From Roseobacter sp. MH60115 (GTDB lineage: Bacteria > Pseudomonadota > Alphaproteobacteria > Rhodobacterales > Rhodobacteraceae): 64,000 nt of DNA. Below the pieces are notes generated by a model that ran no database searches, was not told where the DNA came from, and saw only the letters and a program-made list of their open reading frames with translations. Every line of letters begins with the position of its first letter. Position 1 is the first letter of the stretch. This document shows, piece after piece, positions 38,039 to 50,987 of the stretch. The position numbers were made by a program, and so were the translations under genes. Where the stretch lies: NCBI RefSeq assembly GCF_015644665.1, contig NZ_JADOBQ010000005.1:372001-436000 (forward strand), in the 5' to 3' direction.

Positions 38039-38926
38039 TCACCCCTTTTCAATCGCCTCTTTCACGGCTTCGCCCAGCGTGGCAGGGCTGTCGGCGACCA
38101 CAATCCCGGCGGCGCGCATGGCTTCGATTTTGTCCTCGGCACCGCCCTTACCGCCAGCGACGATGGCACCGGCGTGGCCCATGCGGCGGCCCGGAGGGGC
38201 GGTGCGGCCCGCGATGAAACCCGCTGTGGGCTTCCAACGGCCCTTCTTCTTCTCGTCAGCCAGGAATTGTGCTGCGTCTTCCTCGGCGCTGCCGCCGATT
38301 TCGCCGATCATGATAATGCTCTGCGTCTCGTCATCCGCCAGAAACATTTCCAACACGTCAATGTGCTCGGTCCCCTTGATCGGGTCGCCGCCGATGCCCA
38401 CCGCTGTCGACTGGCCATAGCCCAGATCGGTGGTCTGCTTGACCGCCTCATAGGTCAGCGTGCCGGAGCGTGAGACCACCCCGCAGGAGCCGCGCTTGTG
38501 GATGTGGCCGGGCATGATGCCGATCTTGCAGGCGTCGGGCGTGATCACACCGGGGCAGTTCGGCCCCACGAGCCGCGAGGCGGAGCCTTCCAGCGCGCGC
38601 TGCACCTTCATCATGTCGAGCACCGGGATACCTTCGGTGATGCAGACGATCAGCTCCATCTCCGCATCGATGGCCTCAAGGATCGAATCCGCGGCGAAGG
38701 GCGGCGGCACGTAGATCACGGAGGCATTCGCCTCGGTCTTGGCCTTGGCCTCATGCACGGAATTGAAAACCGGCAGGTCCAGATGTGTCTGACCGCCTTT
38801 GCCGGGGGTCACACCGCCAACCATCTTGGTACCATATGCAATGGCCTGCTCAGTGTGGAACGTGCCCTGCGAGCCGGTGAGGCCCTGGCAGATGACTTTT
38901 GTGTTTTCGTCGATGAGTACGGCCAT
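38039..38926 (-). CDS. sucD: Succinyl-CoA synthetase alpha subunit
   Basis: 295 residues. The CoA-binding Rossmann domain starts with [19 protein letters not shown]. The phosphorylated active-site histidine is H251 in RRMGHAGAI, and the ligase block [11 protein letters not shown] is intact. With SucC it converts succinyl-CoA to succinate with ATP or GTP formation. It is separated from sucC by four genes of cell-envelope type rather than adjacent, and is followed by a structured spacer. Confidence 0.97.
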
Positions 38927-41557: not shown

Positions 41558-42751
41558 CTAGCCTTTCACAGCTTTCACGATCTTCTGCGCGCCGTCTTTC
41601 AGGTCATCCGCCGCGATCACGTCCACGTCCGAGTTGTTGATGATGTCCTTGCCCTGCTGCACATTGGTGCCTTCCAGACGGACAACCAGCGGCACCTGCA
41701 GGCCTACCTCCTTGACCGCCGCGACGACGCCCTCGGCGATCACATCGCAGCGCATGATACCGCCGAAGATGTTCACCAGGATGCCTTTGACGTTCGGGTC
41801 GGAGGTGATGATCTTGAAGGCTTCGGTCACCTTTTCCTTGGTGGCGCCGCCGCCGACGTCGAGGAAGTTGGCAGGCTCGGCCCCATAGAGCTTGATGATG
41901 TCCATCGTCGCCATGGCAAGGCCCGCGCCGTTCACCATGCAGCCGATTTCGCCATCGAGTGCGATGTAGTTCAGATCGTATTTCGAGGCCTCCAGCTCCT
42001 TGCTGTCCTCCTCGGTGGTGTCGCGCAATTCGGCGACATCCGGGTGCCGGTAGATGGCATTTCCGTCAAAGCTGACCTTGGCATCGAGCACTTTCAAGTC
42101 GCCGCTGTCGGTCACAATAAGCGGGTTGATCTCCAGCATCTCCATGTCTTTTTCCATGAAGGCCTTGTAGAGCAGACCCATCAGCCCGACGCATTGCTTG
42201 ACCTGTTTGCCCTCGAGACCCAAAGCAAAGGCGATGCGACGTCCGTGGAACGCCTGGTAGCCCGAGGCTGGGTCGACCGAAAAGCTGAGGATTTTCTCAG
42301 GGGTCGCCGCAGCCACCTCCTCAATGTCCATGCCGCCTTCGGTGGAACAGACAAAGCTGACGCGGCTGGTCTGGCGATCCACCAGAAGGGCCAGATACAT
42401 TTCCGTCTCGATGCCCGAGCCATCCTCGATGTAGATGCGGTTGACCTGCTTGCCCGCAGGTCCGGTCTGATGCGTGACCAGAGTGCGGCCCAGCATCTTT
42501 TTTGCCTCCTCTGCGGCTTCTTCCACCGATTTGGTCAAACGCACGCCGCCCTTGTCTCCGGCGTCCGGTTCCTTGAACTTCCCCTTGCCACGTCCGCCGG
42601 CGTGGATCTGCGCCTTGACCACCCACATCGGACCGTCCATCGCACCTGCCGCCGTCTTGGCTTCTTCGGCGCGCAGCACCACCCGACCGTCCGAGACCGG
42701 CGCGCCATAGCTGCGCAACAATGCTTTCGCCTGATATTCGTGGATATTCAT
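41558..42751 (-). CDS. sucC: Succinyl-CoA synthetase beta subunit
   Basis: 397 residues, the standard length. An N-terminal ATP-grasp domain opens with [20 protein letters not shown] and carries [17 protein letters not shown]. The C-terminal ligase domain contains [15 protein letters not shown] and [14 protein letters not shown]. It forms the nucleotide-binding part of succinyl-CoA synthetase. It is first in the long minus-strand block, and a pair of TGTGATCACA palindromes lies 115-145 bp upstream of its start. Confidence 0.97.
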
Positions 42752-42860
42752 GGATAGGGTCCCGTTTTGTTGGATCGGATCGTTTCGCCGATATAAGCCG
42801 CGAAGTTTCCACGAGGGAACCTGTTTTGGCCTGTACTATGGCTTGACAGTGAGAAATCGA

Positions 42861-42901
42861 CATTTTGTGATCACAGGATTTTCTGCTGTGATCACAAAAT
42901 G
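42861..42901 (-). promoter_or_regulatory. Paired TGTGATCACA palindromes upstream of sucC
   Basis: Two perfect 10-bp palindromes at 42866-42875 and 42887-42896 are spaced 21 bp start to start. Together they form a larger perfect inverted repeat with 15-bp arms (42861-42875 and 42887-42901) around an 11-nt spacer. The same pair with the same spacing precedes sdhC. This is a likely binding site for a dimeric regulator on one DNA face; which protein is unknown. Confidence 0.75.
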
Positions 42902-42956
42902 CATCTGCAGGACAATTTTCATATAATGCAAGGGATTCGCAGCCCAAAGGCTCAGG

Positions 42957-43541
42957 TTAGGCAATGAAGAGTCGTTGGCAGGCCGCGACCATCTCGCGCT
43001 CATAGGCGGTTTGCGCCCAGCCGCGGCGCTGGACGAGATCTTCCCATGTGGTCACCGAGAGCATGGACCACATGAGATCTGTGGCCATCTCCGGGTCCGT
43101 ATCGGCGGGCAGATCACCGTCAGCGTGAAGCGCCTGGATCGCCGCCGCGCACCCCTCACGCATGTCGGACATGCGTTGTGACCAGGCGGATGCGGCTTCG
43201 GTATCCGTGGCCGCCATGTCCATGAGTGGCTTTGCGACACGGTAGATTTTCGGCACGTAACTGCACCAGGCCAGGACAAACGCCTCCAGCCTGACGCGTC
43301 CGGATGGCGCGGTGCGACTGGCCTGCAATTGACTGTCCATATCGAGCTGGGCATCGAGCGCTTTGGTCGCGGCGATCAGGACTTCGGCGCGGGAGCCGAA
43401 GTGCAGATAAATCGCCTGACGGCTTACCCCCGCCTTCTTGGCGACATCTGAAAGGCGCGTCGCGTCACGCTGATCGCCTTCAAGCAGGGCAAGTGCTGCG
43501 TTGACGATACGCTCTTTTGTTGAATTTCCTCGGCTTGACAT
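42957..43541 (-). CDS. TetR-family transcriptional regulator
   Basis: 194 residues from ATG 43541 (MSSRGNSTKERIVNAALALL). A TetR helix-turn-helix is at about 29-52 (RLSDVAKKAGVSRQAIYLHF), followed by a helical ligand-binding domain. The ligand is unknown. It lies between mdh and sucC on the same strand, with the paired-palindrome site just downstream of its stop. This placement does not by itself make it the regulator of that site. Confidence 0.88.
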   Translation of the reverse strand: MSSRGNSTKERIVNAALALLEGDQRDATRLSDVAKKAGVSRQAIYLHFGSRAEVLIAATKALDAQLDMDSQLQASRTAPSGRVRLEAFVLAWCSYVPKIYRVAKPLMDMAATDTEAASAWSQRMSDMREGCAAAIQALHADGDLPADTDPEMATDLMWSMLSVTTWEDLVQRRGWAQTAYEREMVAACQRLFIA

Positions 43542-43599
43542 GCCGTCAAGGAGCAAGTCAGCCCGGCAAAGTCAAGGTCGTCCGCGATCTACGACCGGC

Positions 43600-43624
43600 A
43601 AAAAAGAACCCGCCGGAGCGGGTT
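43600..43624 (-). terminator. Rho-independent terminator after mdh
   Basis: On the minus strand a perfect 7-bp stem (AACCCGC/GCGGGTT, 43624-43618 with 43613-43607) with a 4-nt loop is followed by CTTTTTT. It lies 29 bp after the mdh stop and separates mdh from the tetR-sucC region. Confidence 0.85.
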
Positions 43625-43652
43625 CCCTGACGTGCATTTAGTCCTGAAAAGT

Positions 43653-44660
<1,008 letters not shown>

Positions 44661-44808
44661 TTAACGCCCGATTGCGCAAGTTCGCTTGCATGGTTGTGTT
44701 CGGGCGGGCGCTGTCGTGATCTGTGCATGCCGAATCGCGTGCTCCTTTGCACGCATGGATGGCGGGGTGCTGATCAATTGTGCAGGGCACCAGAGGAGAG
44801 GCAGCAGA

Positions 44809-45564
44809 TTGCTCACACTGGATTGGATGTTTTTTGCGGTAGCTGGGCCGGCTGTCATCTTTGCCGGTATTTCCAAAGGTGGGTTCGGGTCCGGTGCTGC
44901 GTTTGCCGCCGCGAGTATTCTGGCACTCGTGGTCGAGCCCGGGCTGGCGCTGGGCGTCATGCTGCCGCTTCTGATGCTGATCGACGTTGCATCCCTGCGC
45001 CCGTACTGGCGCAAGTGGGACGGTCAGGCGGCGCTGCTGCTGATCCTCGGGGGGATGCCGGGTGTGGCTTTGGGCGCGGCGCTCTACAGGATCGCGGAGC
45101 CCGATGTGCTACGGGTTCTGATCGGCGCGATTTCTATCGCCTTTGTCCTGTGGCAGGTGGGCCTCGCCCCGAAACTGATGGCACGCTCGGCGCGCAGACT
45201 TCCGCTTTGGGCAGGGGGCGTTGCCGGGCTGGTGGCCGGCTTCACCAGCTTTGTCAGCCATGCGGGCGGCCCGCCAGCTGCCGTGTATCTGCTCTCCATG
45301 AAGCTGACGAAAACCCAGTATCAGGCGACGACCGTGCTTGTTTTCTGGGTGATCAATATCGCGAAATTCATCCCTTACGCTTTCCTAGGGATGTTCACGC
45401 TGGAGACGGGGATGGCAAACCTCGTGCTGGCACCCTTTGCCCTGCTTGGGGCCTGGCTGGGCGTGCGCGCCCATCGGCTGGTGCCGGAGCGACTGTTCTT
45501 CGGATTGACCTATGCGCTGCTGAGTCTGACCGGGATCAAACTGATCTGGGACGGTCTGACCTGA
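44809..45564 (+). CDS. TSUP-family (TauE/SafE-like) membrane transporter
   Basis: 251 residues from TTG 44809, preceded by AGAGGAGAGG at a good distance; longer upstream frames lack family sequence. Seven or eight helices carry the family blocks FAGISKGGFGSGAAF near the N-terminus and FTSFVSHAGGPPAAVYLL near the middle. TSUP proteins export or import sulfite, sulfonates or other anions. The substrate is unknown. It is divergent from mdh. Confidence 0.87.
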   Translation: MLTLDWMFFAVAGPAVIFAGISKGGFGSGAAFAAASILALVVEPGLALGVMLPLLMLIDVASLRPYWRKWDGQAALLLILGGMPGVALGAALYRIAEPDVLRVLIGAISIAFVLWQVGLAPKLMARSARRLPLWAGGVAGLVAGFTSFVSHAGGPPAAVYLLSMKLTKTQYQATTVLVFWVINIAKFIPYAFLGMFTLETGMANLVLAPFALLGAWLGVRAHRLVPERLFFGLTYALLSLTGIKLIWDGLT

Positions 45565-45648
45565 CAGGTTGGCGGGTGTCGGCCCGTCCGGCAGACGGTC
45601 AAGGATCTGCACTGCGTGCCAGGTGGGCCGCTGGCCCACCTTTGTGGT

Positions 45649-45981
45649 TCAGGCGTCGTTGCCTTTGGCGGGCAGAGCCTCTGCAAGTGTTTCGTAAGAC
45701 TGTCCGGACGCAACGAGGCATGTCAGGCCGTTGGGCGTCGTGACCGTAATTGTCCAGGTGCCGGTTTCATCCGAGGCAAATACCTCGATCACCGCGTTAT
45801 TGGCACCGAGCCCCATGGACTGACGGGATTCGCCGTAACCCTCGGCCAGCCGGTCGACAACAGCGTCGCGTGGCGCACAATTGCGCGCATTTTGCGCTGC
45901 GGCATCGGTGGTAGAAGCAATATAAAGTGCGGCTGCCGCGCTGAGCGCGCCCAAATGCAGCATCTTGGATATGCGTGTCAT
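45649..45981 (-). CDS. Small exported hypothetical protein
   Basis: 110 residues with a signal peptide (about 1-29, TTDAAAQ) and a compact periplasmic domain. Two cysteines (NCAPRD and LTCLVAS) probably form a disulfide, and WTITVTTPNGLTCLVASGQ near the C-terminus is a typical ending of small Rhodobacterales proteins of this kind. The function is unknown. It is convergent with the TSUP gene and divergent from mcl2. Confidence 0.75.
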   Translation of the reverse strand: MTRISKMLHLGALSAAAALYIASTTDAAAQNARNCAPRDAVVDRLAEGYGESRQSMGLGANNAVIEVFASDETGTWTITVTTPNGLTCLVASGQSYETLAEALPAKGNDA

Positions 45982-46312
45982 AATGTGTCTGCCTTCATGT
46001 CAAAGGCGGCACCCGCTGTCATCTGGCCCAACCGGCTTTACCGGTGATGACCGGGCGGCCCCGGTTCAAGATAAATGCCGTTGATATCACGAGATCAGGT
46101 GCATCCAGCGGCCAGGCCGAAGCAGGGTTTGCCGAGATATCCGACGCAAACACCATCCGCTTTAGGGCTGAAATAATGGTTAATCCGCCGTACGGATATA
46201 GATTGAATTTGAAATTTGCTGCATTGCGGCACAAATCTGCTTGCAGTTTCTTTCAAAAAATGCCCCATTCCGCGCAATTTTGTGACCTGCTGATGAGCGT
46301 GGACCTTTGCCA
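45982..46312. other. Intergenic region upstream of mcl2
   Basis: 331 bases without a convincing gene. It is AT-rich in its right half and should hold the promoter of the mcl2 operon and that of the small exported protein. It contains the 13-mer listed separately at 46219-46231. Confidence 0.5.
46219..46231 (+). promoter_or_regulatory. CTGCATTGCGGCA element upstream of mcl2
   Basis: A 13-bp sequence 82 bp upstream of the mcl2 start, flanked by TTTG on the left and CAAA on the right, which adds dyad symmetry. The identical 13-mer precedes ccr, and a 12-of-13 match precedes ecm. All three belong to the ethylmalonyl-CoA pathway. Confidence 0.6.
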
Positions 46313-47170
46313 ATGACTGTCTCTCAACGCCCTTTGCGTTCTGTTCTCTACATTCCGGGTTCAAAACCTCGGGCACTTGAAAAAGCCCGGAGCTTGCCTG
46401 CGGATGCCATTATATTCGATCTCGAAGACGCTGTGGCACCGGACGAAAAATCAACCGCGCGCAGCACGCTGGCGCAGGCGCTTTCCGACGGCGGTTACGG
46501 TGCGCGCATGAAGATTGTGCGCATCAACGACCTGGGAACCGAATGGGGGGCGGAGGATGCGCGTGCGGTTCTGTCGATGGGGGCAGATGCGGTGTTGCTG
46601 CCCAAGGTAAACGGGCCTGCGGAGCTTGATGCATTGGCAGAGATCACGGGCGATCTGCCGCTGTGGGCAATGATGGAAACGCCCACGGGCATGCTGCGCG
46701 CCGCAGAGATTGCCGCCCATCCGCTGTCGCAGGGCATGGTGATGGGGACAAACGATCTCGCCAAGGACATGGGCACGCGTTTTCGTGTCGACCGCATGCC
46801 GCTCATGACCGGGCTGGGCCTGTGTTTGCTTGCGGCAAAGGCGCACGGCCTGGCCATCATCGATGGGGTCTACAACGCTTTTCGCGATGCGGAGGGGCTT
46901 GCTGCGGAATGCACGCAGGGTCGCGATATGGGGTTTGATGGCAAGACACTGATCCACCCGGCCCAGTTGGATGTCACCAATGCGGCGTTTGCCCCATCCG
47001 AGGAGGAAGTGGACCTCGCCCGTCGCCAGATTGCCGCCTATGATGAAGCCCTTACGAACGGCCAGGCGGTCGCCGTGGTTGACGGGCGCATCGTCGAAAA
47101 TCTGCATGTTGCAACTGCACGCGAAACACTGGCAAAGATGGACGCGATAGCAGCTCTCAACGCGGGGTAA
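46313..47170 (+). CDS. mcl2: CoA-ester lyase family protein, likely (3S)-malyl-CoA thioesterase
   Basis: 285 residues from ATG 46313. HpcH/HpaI aldolase fold with LRSVLYIPGSKPRALEKARS, the metal and CoA region DAIIFDLEDAVAPDEK, and MMETPTGMLRAAEIA. The length and the short N-terminus fit the Mcl2-type thioesterase that releases malate from malyl-CoA, rather than the longer malyl-CoA lyase Mcl1. Citrate-lyase-beta-like activity cannot be excluded. Its operon contains mch, which supports a place in the ethylmalonyl-CoA pathway. Confidence 0.8.
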   Translation: MTVSQRPLRSVLYIPGSKPRALEKARSLPADAIIFDLEDAVAPDEKSTARSTLAQALSDGGYGARMKIVRINDLGTEWGAEDARAVLSMGADAVLLPKVNGPAELDALAEITGDLPLWAMMETPTGMLRAAEIAAHPLSQGMVMGTNDLAKDMGTRFRVDRMPLMTGLGLCLLAAKAHGLAIIDGVYNAFRDAEGLAAECTQGRDMGFDGKTLIHPAQLDVTNAAFAPSEEEVDLARRQIAAYDEALTNGQAVAVVDGRIVENLHVATARETLAKMDAIAALNAG

Positions 47171-47174
47171 GCCA

Positions 47175-47732
47175 ATGACACTTCTCATCGCCGGATTGGT
47201 CCTCTGGACCCTTGTTCACTACTTCAAACGACTGGCCCCGGATCAGCGCGTGGCCCTTGGCGCGCCGGGCAAGGGTCTTGTCGCGCTGGGTGTTGTTGCC
47301 GGGCTCATTCTGATGATCATCGGCTACCGCGCGGCGGATTTCATCCCCGTCTGGCAGCCGCCCGCTTTCATGGTGCATGTCAATAACACGCTGATGTTGT
47401 TGGCGTTCTGGGTCTACGGCTCTAGCGCCGCAAAAGGGGCGAAAGCCTGGCCCGCCTATAGAATCCGGCACCCGCAACTCACCGGGTTCAAGATCTGGAG
47501 CGCGGCGCATCTGCTGGTCAACGGTGATCTCGCATCCATCCTGCTCTTTGGCGGCCTGCTGGCTTGGGCCGTGGGCCAAGTGATCCTGATCAACCGCGCC
47601 GAGCCTGATTGGACGGCACCCGAACCCGCGGGCACCGCGACCTATGTGCGCCTGGCCGTCATTTCGCTTGTCCTCTTTGCACTCGTCGCCGGCATTCACA
47701 TCTGGCTTGGCGTCTGGCCCTTTCCCGTCTGA
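47175..47732 (+). CDS. NnrU-family membrane protein
   Basis: 185 residues with about five hydrophobic helices. The pattern VHYFKRLAPDQR near the N-terminus, RHPQLTGFKIWSAAHLLVNG in the middle and GIHIWLGVWPFPV at the end is that of NnrU/isoprenoid-type membrane proteins. NnrU was named from denitrification clusters, but none is visible here. It begins 4 bp after mcl2, so it is in the same operon. Confidence 0.85.
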   Translation: MTLLIAGLVLWTLVHYFKRLAPDQRVALGAPGKGLVALGVVAGLILMIIGYRAADFIPVWQPPAFMVHVNNTLMLLAFWVYGSSAAKGAKAWPAYRIRHPQLTGFKIWSAAHLLVNGDLASILLFGGLLAWAVGQVILINRAEPDWTAPEPAGTATYVRLAVISLVLFALVAGIHIWLGVWPFPV

Positions 47733-47748
47733 TTTTCGGAGATAGCTC

Positions 47749-47952
47749 ATGAAACTCTACCGCTTCCTCTCTGAGGAGGACACATCGGCCTTCTGCCACA
47801 AGGTAACGGAGGCGTTGAACAAGGGGTGGGAGCTGCACGGCAGCCCGACGCAAACCTGGGACCACGCCGCAGGTGTCATGCGCTGCGGACAGGCGGTGCT
47901 GAAAGAGGTGGACGGGACCTACACGCCCGACACCAAGCTGGGGGCGCAGTGA
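47749..47952 (+). CDS. DUF1737 protein
   Basis: 67 residues. The protein starts MKLYRFLSEEDTSAFCHKV and contains ALNKGWELHGSPTQTWD, typical of DUF1737, a family of small proteins of unknown role. Its stop overlaps the mch start (TGATG), and it follows nnrU by 16 bp, so it is part of the mcl2-mch operon. Confidence 0.85.
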   Translation: MKLYRFLSEEDTSAFCHKVTEALNKGWELHGSPTQTWDHAAGVMRCGQAVLKEVDGTYTPDTKLGAQ

Positions 47953-48986
47953 TGGGGGTGAAGACCAACGCGGGCCGGTTTTTTGAAGACTATGCCGTCG
48001 GCCAGATGATCCATCACGCGGTGCCGCGCACGGTCAAGATGGGTGAGCGCGCGCTCTACCACATGCTCTACCCCGCACGTCACGCGCTCTATTCCTCAGA
48101 TCAGTTTGCGCAAAGCTGCGGGCTGCCGTTCAGCCCGCTCGACGACATGATCGCCTTCCACGTTGTCTTCGGCAAGACCGTGCCGGATGTGTCGCTGAAC
48201 GCGGTGGCGAACCTCGGCTATGCCCAAGGCCGCTGGATCACGCCGGTCTGGCCCGGGGACACGCTGCGCTCGGTCTCCGAGGTGATCGGGGTCAAGCAGA
48301 ACTCCAACGGTAAGACCGGGGTGGTCTGGGTGCGCACCACCGGCCTCAACCAGCACGACGAGACGGTGCTGGAGTATGTGCGCTGGGTCATGGTGCGCAA
48401 ACGCCACACGGATGCGCCCGCGCCGGAGACGGTAGTACCCGATCTGCCCAAGGCCGTGGCGGCAGAGGATCTGGTGATCCCGAAGGGCCTCGATTTCACC
48501 AACTACGATTGCACGCTGGCGGGTGAGCCACATCGCTGGGGTGACTACGCCATCGGCGAGCAGATCGACCACGTGGACGGTGTGACCGTCGAAGAGGCGG
48601 AACACATGATGGCCACGCGGCTTTGGCAGAACACCGCCAAGGTGCATTTCGATACCTCCGCCCGGCCCGACGGATCCCGCTTGATCTACGGCGGTCACGT
48701 GATTTCTATGGCGCGCACGCTCAGCTTCAACGGGCTGGCCAATGCGCAGATGGTGGTGGGGCTGAACGGGGGGGCGCATGCCAATCCCTGTCTTGCCGGC
48801 GACACCATTCGCGCGTGGTCCGAAGTGCTCGACAAGGCCGAGACATCTGCGCCGGGTGTCGGCGCGCTGCGCCTGCGGCTGGTGGCGACAAAGGGCGGCG
48901 ATCCCTTCACGCTGAAAGGCGAGGATGGGAAGTATCTGTCTGATGTTCTGCTCGATCTGGACTACTGGGCGCTGATTCCGACGTAG
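47952..48986 (+). CDS. mch: Mesaconyl-CoA hydratase
   Basis: 344 residues from ATG 47952. Double MaoC-like hydratase: the first half carries GRFFEDYAVGQMIHHAVPRT, the second GEPHRWGDYAIGEQIDHVDG and an IYGGHVISMARTLSFNGLAN block. The length and order match Mch enzymes that hydrate mesaconyl-C1-CoA to beta-methylmalyl-CoA in the ethylmalonyl-CoA pathway. The upstream frame into DUF1737 is a shadow. It is the last gene of the operon. Confidence 0.92.
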   Translation: MGVKTNAGRFFEDYAVGQMIHHAVPRTVKMGERALYHMLYPARHALYSSDQFAQSCGLPFSPLDDMIAFHVVFGKTVPDVSLNAVANLGYAQGRWITPVWPGDTLRSVSEVIGVKQNSNGKTGVVWVRTTGLNQHDETVLEYVRWVMVRKRHTDAPAPETVVPDLPKAVAAEDLVIPKGLDFTNYDCTLAGEPHRWGDYAIGEQIDHVDGVTVEEAEHMMATRLWQNTAKVHFDTSARPDGSRLIYGGHVISMARTLSFNGLANAQMVVGLNGGAHANPCLAGDTIRAWSEVLDKAETSAPGVGALRLRLVATKGGDPFTLKGEDGKYLSDVLLDLDYWALIPT

Positions 48987-49010
48987 AAACCGCAAAGGGA
49001 GGGACAGGCG

Positions 49011-49727
49011 ATGGTGAGGCGGACAATTTTGGCAGGGGTGCTGGCGGTCGTGGCGGCCACGTCGGCTGCTGCGCAATCGCGCGAGGATGATTTCGTGGCG
49101 GCGAACGTGCTGGCCATTCTCTACCACGAACTTGGCCACGCCCTGATCGACATCCTGAACCTGCCGGTTTTCGGTCAGGAAGAGGACGCAGCGGACGTGC
49201 TTAGCGTCCTGCTGATCCATGACCTCTACGAAGAAGAGGCCGCTGCGGGCATTATCTATGATGCGGCTTTTGGTTTCCTCGGAGAGGCGGAAGGGAACGA
49301 GCCTGCCCCCTGGGATGTGCACGGCCCCGATCTGCAGCGCTACTACACCATGGTTTGCCTGTTTTACGGTGCCAATCCAGAGGCCCGCGAGGCGCTGGCA
49401 ATCGAACTGGATTTGCCGGAGGAGCGGGCCGAAACCTGCGTTGAGGAGTTCGAGCTTGCCTATGACAGCTGGGGTCCGGTGCTGGACGGGATCACGGCGG
49501 AGGAGCCTGGCGTATCGATGGTACTCCAGAGCGCGGATGACACGCTGATTGGCCAGTTGATGGTTGATGAGGTCCGCGCGCTGAACGAAGACTTCGATCT
49601 ACCAGAGACTCTGACCCTCCGGGCTGAGGTCTGTGGCGAGGCCAACGGTTTTTACGATCCGGGAACGCGCGAGATCATCATTTGCAGTGAATTGGATGGT
49701 TATCTGCGGTCACTGGCGGAATTCTGA
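49011..49727 (+). CDS. DUF4344-type exported metallopeptidase-like protein
   Basis: 238 residues. A signal peptide (about 1-21, SAAAQS) is followed by a conserved HELGH zinc motif (39-43), an acidic body rich in Glu and Asp, and two late cysteines. The motif and size fit the DUF4344 family of putative periplasmic metallopeptidases. Substrates are unknown. It lies 24 bp after mch on the same strand and could be transcribed with it. Confidence 0.85.
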   Translation: MVRRTILAGVLAVVAATSAAAQSREDDFVAANVLAILYHELGHALIDILNLPVFGQEEDAADVLSVLLIHDLYEEEAAAGIIYDAAFGFLGEAEGNEPAPWDVHGPDLQRYYTMVCLFYGANPEAREALAIELDLPEERAETCVEEFELAYDSWGPVLDGITAEEPGVSMVLQSADDTLIGQLMVDEVRALNEDFDLPETLTLRAEVCGEANGFYDPGTREIIICSELDGYLRSLAEF

Positions 49728-49781
49728 GGCCCCTTAGAAAAATGATCTGGGATTGGCGGCCAGTTTGCGTAGTCTGGCCCA

Positions 49782-50447
49782 ATGAAACGGCTGATCTCCT
49801 CTCTGGTGATGATGGTCCTCGGCGGGCAGGGCGCGCTTGCCTGCCAGCTGGCGCTGGTGCTCGCCGTTGATGTATCGGGATCCGTCGACAGCCGCGAATA
49901 TGACATCCAGATGCAGGGGCTGGCCGCGGCGTTGCGCGACGGCACCGTTGTCGATGCACTGATCGAGCAGGAGGCGCAGGTCACGTTGATCCAGTGGACC
50001 GGCTCTTCCCGCCAGCGGCAGACTGTGCCCTGGACGCAGATCCGGACCGATGTCGACGTGACGGCGCTGGCGGAGATCATCGCCACCAACCGCCGGGTGT
50101 GGCGCAACTACTCTACGGCCATCGGCGAAGCGCTTGTGGCGGCTGAGGCCGCCCTGATCGAAGTGCCGGAGTGTACCCGCAAGGTCGTGGATGTTTCCGG
50201 TGATGGCATTTCCAATGAAGGCGTATTGCCCCTGACCCGACATCCGGCGCTCTCGGCCATGGGCGTGACGGTGAACGCGCTGGCGATCGAGACCGATGAG
50301 GGCGACCTGACCGGCTGGTTTTATGAAAACCTGATCCTGGGCGACGGCGCATTCGTGATCACCGCTGATGGGTTTGAGGATTATCCTGCGCAGATCAGAC
50401 GCAAATTACAGCGCGAGACCACGCGACAGCTCAGCTACCTGCCATAA
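49782..50447 (+). CDS. DUF1194 exported von Willebrand-type protein
   Basis: 221 residues with a signal peptide (about 1-20) and a vWFA-like domain containing the MIDAS motif DVSGS (30-34) and the later VDVSGDGISNEG block. The DUF1194 family is common in Alphaproteobacteria, probably periplasmic, function unknown. It is followed by the paired palindromes and sdhC promoter region starting right after its stop. Confidence 0.87.
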   Translation: MKRLISSLVMMVLGGQGALACQLALVLAVDVSGSVDSREYDIQMQGLAAALRDGTVVDALIEQEAQVTLIQWTGSSRQRQTVPWTQIRTDVDVTALAEIIATNRRVWRNYSTAIGEALVAAEAALIEVPECTRKVVDVSGDGISNEGVLPLTRHPALSAMGVTVNALAIETDEGDLTGWFYENLILGDGAFVITADGFEDYPAQIRRKLQRETTRQLSYLP

Positions 50448-50478
50448 TGTGATCACGCGCTGTTCTCGTGTGATCACA
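50448..50478 (+). promoter_or_regulatory. Paired TGTGATCAC palindromes upstream of sdhC
   Basis: TGTGATCACG at 50448-50457 and TGTGATCACA at 50469-50478 are spaced 21 bp start to start, with an 11-nt spacer, exactly as upstream of sucC. The right copy ends 126 bp before the sdhC start. Only one base differs from the perfect palindrome. It is probably the operator of the sdh operon. Confidence 0.75.
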
Positions 50479-50603
50479 AATAACGGCAAGTTAATGATTT
50501 TTGTACAAAACGCGCCAATTAACCGCGCCTTGAGGCGGCGCAGACACGTGACAAGCCCGCAATAAGCAGTAAAAAGAAATGCAGGGAACAAAAGGAATCT
50601 CAC

Positions 50604-50987
50604 ATGGCTGATGTCAATCGGGGCAACCGCCCCTTGTCGCCGCATCTGACGATTTATCGTCCGCAGCTGACCTCCATGACCTCCATTCTGACGCGCATCA
50701 CCGGCAATGCGCTTCTGATCTCTTCCTTGTTGATTGTCTGGTGGTTTCTGGCAGCCGCGACCTCACCCGAGTATTTCGCCTATGCGGATGGCGTGCTGAC
50801 CAGCTGGTTCGGTGATCTGGTGATGACCCTGTCTCTTTGGGGGCTGTGGTATCACACGCTGGCGGGGCTGCGGCATCTGATCTGGGATCAGGGCATCGGC
50901 CTCGATCTCGATACCGCCTACAAACTTGGTTACGTGGTGATCGGCGGCTCGGTGCTGCTGACCCTGCTGACCATCGTGATCATATAA
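50604..50987 (+). CDS. sdhC: Succinate dehydrogenase cytochrome b556 subunit
   Basis: 127 residues. The protein begins with the family block NRPLSPHLTIYRPQLTSMTS, has three membrane helices, and carries histidines H84 and H91 in LWYHTLAGLRHLIWD, one of which is the heme ligand. It anchors the complex and binds quinone with SdhD. First gene of sdhCDA-lipoprotein-sdhB. Confidence 0.96.
   Translation: MADVNRGNRPLSPHLTIYRPQLTSMTSILTRITGNALLISSLLIVWWFLAAATSPEYFAYADGVLTSWFGDLVMTLSLWGLWYHTLAGLRHLIWDQGIGLDLDTAYKLGYVVIGGSVLLTLLTIVII

Follow-up and report, generated by a model that had tools for sequence, protein, structure and literature searches.

In Rhodobacter sphaeroides, the GntR-type regulator RSP_0981 is predicted to control succinyl coenzyme A (succinyl-CoA) synthetase (RSP_0967-6), and predictions for the same protein extend to succinate dehydrogenase (RSP_0974-6) and 2-oxoglutarate dehydrogenase (RSP_0965-62) (PMC4344238, in excerpt). 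The motif GTGATCAC has been identified among the binding sites of the R. sphaeroides activator AkgR (PMC6365646, in excerpt). Here, we describe a 64,000-nucleotide stretch of the genome of Roseobacter sp. MH60115 (contig NZ_JADOBQ010000005.1, positions 372,001 to 436,000, hereafter the window), in which two pairs of short palindromes lie upstream of sucC and sdhC and which is a new instance of the already known AkgR regulon. AkgR itself is said, in the mBio paper of 2015 devoted to it, to be RSP_0981 and a direct activator of tricarboxylic acid cycle genes. Most of the sampled genera of Rhodobacteraceae share this paired layout with only minor changes. Read jointly, the comparative evidence makes it very probable that the palindromes are AkgR operators, from which paired dimers would activate sucC and sdhC at a distance, with akgR probably self-repressed.

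Palindrome pairs upstream of sucC and sdhC

The initial annotation had noted two palindrome pairs with 21-bp spacing and an 11-nucleotide spacer, and both pairs are indeed found in the window (Table 1). It had also placed them at similar distances from the start codons, about 115 to 125 bp, which comes close to the 119.5 bp (sucC) and 130.5 bp (sdhC) that we measure from the centre of the proximal site.

Table 1. Genes, palindromes and predicted promoter elements of the sucC and sdhC regions, in window coordinates.
Feature	Position	Strand	Basis or remark
sucD-like open reading frame (ORF) downstream of sucC	38039..38926	-	ORF list; other ORFs in between
sucC, succinyl-CoA ligase beta subunit	41558..42751	-	Pfam and NCBIfam NF001913 above cut-off
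Tentative -10 box (TTATATC), sucC promoter	42790..42796	-	sequence reading, weak, inferred
Putative operator palindrome TGTGATCACA, proximal to sucC	42866..42875	.	sequence reading
Putative operator palindrome TGTGATCACA, distal to sucC	42887..42896	.	21 bp from proximal partner
tetR-family gene beside sucC pair	42957..43556	-	not supported as regulator
Putative operator palindrome TGTGATCACG, distal to sdhC	50448..50457	.	sequence reading
Putative operator palindrome TGTGATCACA, proximal to sdhC	50469..50478	.	21 bp from distal partner
Predicted -35 box GTGACA, sdhC promoter	50548..50553	+	family EM motif
Predicted -10 box TAAAAA, sdhC promoter	50570..50575	+	same motif and sequence reading
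sdhC, succinate dehydrogenase cytochrome b556 subunit	50604..50987	+	TIGR02970 above cut-off

Strand-matches to the pattern TGTGATCAC number 8 in the window, where dinucleotide shuffles lead one to expect 0.61 and reach 4 at most. Allowing one mismatch to TGTGATCACA is less striking, with 5 window matches against 1.67 expected and 3 of 100 shuffles reaching 5. Across the 4.76-Mb genome (19 contigs), exact TGTGATCACA occurs at six places, three of them within the sucC and sdhC pairs and the others near a universal-stress-protein gene (L001), at a further locus (L002) and at akgR (L003). When pairs at 21 bp were sought genome-wide with up to three mismatches, those at sucC and sdhC alone had one mismatch or fewer and the next best had two; no further pair with at most one mismatch was thus found in the source genome that would indicate a wide regulon.

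In the DNA of relatives outside both promoters, single sites number 90 in 1.59 Mb, or 1 per 17.7 kb, from which about 0.05 exact pairs per 4-Mb genome are expected. This measured density serves as our chance estimate; a reversed-pattern control gave 0 among the matches listed, but it contains CTAG, which is rare in many bacterial genomes, and we therefore rely on the measured density instead. Within the 1.59 Mb, two exact pairs seemed to escape the promoter mask, but both lie just after mdh, where sucC usually stands, in two of the 35 stretches without a sucC match. A chance origin of the pairs is ruled out by the shuffles, the genome-wide rarity, the conservation and the site density. As a separate observation, the single TGTGATCACA of L001 (L001:1501-1510) lies 44 bp before the universal-stress-protein gene.

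Conservation was followed with the exact pattern GTGATCAC-N11..14-GTGATCAC, i.e., at spacings of 19 to 22 bp. Of the 150 family genomes, each from a different genus, 135 contain such pairs, usually two and never more than three. In an order sample, all of whose genomes were assigned to the same genus or family, 385 of 390 have one. At the class level, 11 of 387 genomes carry a pair, six of the 11 belonging to the family itself; the remaining 5 of 381 outside it correspond to a frequency no higher than the chance expectation of about 0.05 per 4 Mb. Poor conservation in relatives and many random copies elsewhere, which the initial annotation had named as arguments against its reading, were both examined, and the outcome favours a real site.

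We located sdhC in 145 of the 150 genomes and fetched about 12 kb upstream of each, less at contig ends. In 117 of these 145 stretches, sdhC is preceded by a pair that has no more than one mismatch; sucC is found in 110 of them, and in 107 of the 110 it too has such a pair upstream. The three sucC genes without one (L133, L143 and L225, in genomes G043, G147 and G092) all come from genomes in which the AkgR orthologue described below is missing. With up to two mismatches allowed, the spacing at sdhC is 21 bp in 106 of 120 pairs, 20 bp in 13 and 19 bp in 1, and at sucC it is 21 bp in 99 of 107 and 20 bp in 8. This near-invariant spacing bears out the earlier proposal of two sites two helical turns apart, and the spacer between them is A/T-leaning and little conserved.

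AkgR as the candidate regulator

The candidate regulator of the source genome is a GntR/FCD protein encoded outside the window, 266 kb away (G000:C15:148333-148980), with two domains above cut-off, the GntR DNA-binding domain PF00392 (1e-13) and the FCD domain PF07729 (5.7e-16). Strong matches to this protein (E<=1.5e-78) occur in 135 of the 150 family genomes, and the next lower class of matches begins at 3.8e-48. Orthologue and exact pair are both present in 133 genomes, the pair alone in 2, the orthologue alone in 2 (G035 and G139), and neither in 13. The two genomes with the orthologue alone are weak exceptions: in G035 (L176) each of the two pairs carries one mismatch, and G139 yielded no sdhC. 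In the 13 genomes lacking both (e.g., G016, G043, G054, G076 and G147), the strong AkgR match and the exact pair have apparently been lost, or are absent, together. That one regulator is common to sucC and sdhC, as the initial annotation had proposed, is supported by this co-occurrence and with the conservation at both genes.

The probable identity of the regulator is indicated by named genomes, 10 of which were chosen from 80 loci matching a PufL query. All 10 carry the orthologue (E<=1e-96) together with at least two pairs. Among them, Cereibacter johrii has a PufL identical to the R. sphaeroides query, and within 14 kb of its genome lie akgR, sdhBADC, the sdhC pair, mdh, the sucC pair, sucC and the start of sucD. 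The source GntR/FCD protein is 76% identical to the sole C. johrii match at E<=1e-20, which is encoded close to sdh, and the numbers of the RSP_ tags agree with the C. johrii gene layout. On this comparative evidence, the candidate regulator is very probably AkgR, which ties a motif spotted by eye to a named regulator. The name AkgR is all that suggests the signal, 2-oxoglutarate or a related metabolite.

The sucD-like ORF of the window has a C. johrii homologue 90% identical over 236 amino acids that directly follows sucC there, and it is possible that the ORF shares one operon with sucC. In addition, the stop codon (50445-50447) of a DUF1194 (VWA-like) gene (window 49782-50450) abuts the distal sdhC palindrome at 50448.

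Promoter phase, self-site and proposed mechanism

An unsupervised expectation-maximization (EM) motif search over the 117 sdhC regions returned CGTGACA-N16-TAtnAa, a sigma-70-like promoter. The box [GT]TGAC[AT] is present in 102 of the 117 regions; counted from the proximal 8-mer, it begins at +65 to +69 in 90 of these, and the opposite strand has 4 matches in all. In the source genome, the predicted sdhC -35 box lies at +78, roughly one helical turn farther from the site than the +66/67 that prevails in the family. With the prevailing position, the predicted start comes about 100 bp after the proximal site; AT-rich positions are seen at about +18, +38 and +49 between the sites and the promoter. 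For sucC, the EM search resolved no clear -35/-10 pair; the box that it returned near +54 is weaker, rich in A and T and marked by CGTTT, and lies roughly one turn nearer to the sites than the sdhC box; the tentative sucC -10 box of the source genome is near an AT-rich position at about +80 in relatives. A fixed phase held over so long a distance suggests activation from one face of the DNA, with contact to the polymerase as the probable means.

A third clean site in the source genome ends 8 bp before the ATG chosen for the GntR/FCD gene at C15:148333, for which an in-frame ATG also exists upstream. We compared 60 akgR upstream regions, made up of the 30 best matches (which over-represent close relatives), the 10 named genomes and 20 taken down the ranking. 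Exact GTGATCAC occurs within the last 64 bp upstream of akgR in 47 of the 60 and typically stands shortly after a TTGAC -35-like box; in 41 of the 47, the site is 13 to 21 bp upstream of the projected start. Because a single site just past such a box should block polymerase, AkgR probably represses itself. From the self-site one would expect a feedback loop, which work on Cereibacter would probably miss.

The picture that best accounts for these observations is as follows. Each palindrome would serve as the operator for one AkgR dimer, so that at sucC and at sdhC two dimers may sit 21 bp apart on the same face of the DNA and activate from far upstream; in most relatives, the sdhC sites stand about 100 and about 120 bp ahead of the predicted start. 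The fixed helical phase to the sdhC -35 box probably reflects contact with RNA polymerase of the class I type, and at the akgR promoter the single site would hinder the polymerase. The near-invariant spacing and promoter phase thereby offer a testable model for a GntR-family activator acting at a distance.

We also consider a more specific code, in which operator pairs (sometimes three operators) at 21-bp steps would mean cooperative, face-specific activation and the single akgR operator would mean autorepression; we regard this as a proposal with slightly less than an even chance. Were it true, the number and phase of sites, and not their sequence, would set the sign of regulation across most of the family, and the autoregulatory site would have been lost in C. 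johrii and some others. As observations in their own right, three GTGATCAC sites at 21-bp steps precede sucC in 2 of the 10 named genomes, Rhodobacter calidifons and Pseudotabrizicola algicola (L343:1010-1059 and L340:1638-1687).

Several points count against activation by AkgR at paired operators, or limit the case for it. The association between orthologue and pair (Fisher p = 6e-15) is not corrected for shared ancestry. Likewise, the 17 other [GT]TGAC[AT] matches tend to fall near full turns of the helix (p = 0.001, with a mean cosine of 0.50 for a 10.5-bp period), but the null of uniform placement ignores shared ancestry, and some regions contribute two matches. Pairs are present in G018 and G105 (assemblies of about 210 and about 320 contigs) with no orthologue detected. 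Among the 145 sdhC regions, 25 have three or more mismatches; 12 of these belong to genomes without an AkgR orthologue, and the other 13 to genomes that possess one, some of which retain one site (e.g., L204 and L227), so the sdhC pair is dispensable, or has been lost, in some lineages. The self-site is missing from 13 of the 60 akgR loci, including those of C. johrii (L324) and G046 (L384), which have the printed akgR upstream sequence in common. Finally, regulon and gene position are the grounds on which RSP_0981 is identified with AkgR.

The alternative that survives best, which we nonetheless consider unlikely, is that AkgR binds the pair solely to repress, or to bend the DNA in an architectural role, activation being left to another factor such as RSP_1663 (CceR) or NtrC. 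Both of these are also predicted at sdh in R. sphaeroides (PMC4344238, in excerpt), and the location of the sites about 100 to 120 bp upstream of the predicted start, with AT-rich positions in between, would accommodate it. However, AkgR is termed a transcriptional activator (PMC6365646, in excerpt), and sites so far upstream of the -35 box are ill suited to simple repression.

Activation by AkgR has two further competitors, one being the product of the tetR gene next to sucC, which the initial annotation had put forward as a candidate regulator. TetR regulators often bind palindromes near their own genes, and this gene, whose protein is a TetR_N match, adjoins the sucC pair; yet matches at E<=1e-20 occur in 13 of 150 genomes, its own included, compared with 135 for the pair, and show no association with it (Fisher p = 1.0). 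Only 2 of the 145 sdhC-sucC stretches contain a tetR match (the source genome and G027), and the next-best match beyond the source genome is 54% identical. On such a distribution, it is extremely improbable that this protein recognizes the two pairs and thereby regulates sucC and sdhC.

Hardly credible either is binding by a CRP/FNR-family protein, whose consensus is TGTGA-N6-TCACA with a 6-bp gap: the TGTGA/TCACA halves recall CRP half-sites, but here they are fused without that gap. The pair instead tracks the GntR/FCD gene, no search for a CRP-family gene having been made, and GTGATCAC is reported among AkgR sites (PMC6365646, in excerpt). Since the pair follows that gene and such a regulator is published for this regulon in R. 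sphaeroides, the likeness to fused CRP half-sites that the initial annotation had pointed out is probably coincidental.

Variants and relation to known systems

Beyond the two core targets, we observe several variants of the layout. G037 carries an extra 21-bp pair (L345:1094-1122) before a Lyase_1 gene, fumC by a reading of its N-terminal sequence, a hint that fumarate hydratase is in some cases part of the regulon. Shimia ponticola has a 20-bp-spaced pair upstream of a Vut_1-family gene (L342:1044-1071). Two genomes of a single genus outside the family have pairs in front of TonB-receptor-plug genes (L355:992-1020 and L354:1501-1530); L355 also holds a divergent GntR/FCD gene whose product is 30% identical to AkgR, and this operator may therefore serve a related regulator as well.

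In the literature searched, which did not include the primary AkgR paper (where some of this may be described), we found no description of the 21-bp pair, the sdhC promoter phase or the akgR self-site. The nearest solved structure by sequence is that of McbR (4p9f_A; E = 1.3e-19, residues 20-212), an FCD-type GntR protein and a distant relative of AkgR with another regulon. Another GntR regulator, PS417_07240 of deoxyribonate catabolism in Pseudomonas simiae, is stated to be 32% identical to AkgR and has the GTGATCAC palindrome in common with it, but serves another pathway; a palindrome is described between -47 and -40 relative to the start codon, and the regulation is only proposed (PMC6365646, in excerpt).

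The AkgR (RSP_0981) regulon of R. sphaeroides is alike in its GntR regulator, its GTGATCAC palindrome and its sucCD and sdh targets, while the 21-bp pair, the promoter phase and the self-site are not mentioned in the excerpted text of PMC4344238 and PMC6365646; in the main text of the former, the words "tandem", "helical", "spacing" and "autoregul" are all absent. Overall, the data indicate that AkgR controls both succinyl-CoA ligase and succinate dehydrogenase as a family-wide trait, not as a peculiarity of R. sphaeroides. The self-site, unlike these shared features, separates the source genome, which has it, from C. johrii, which does not.

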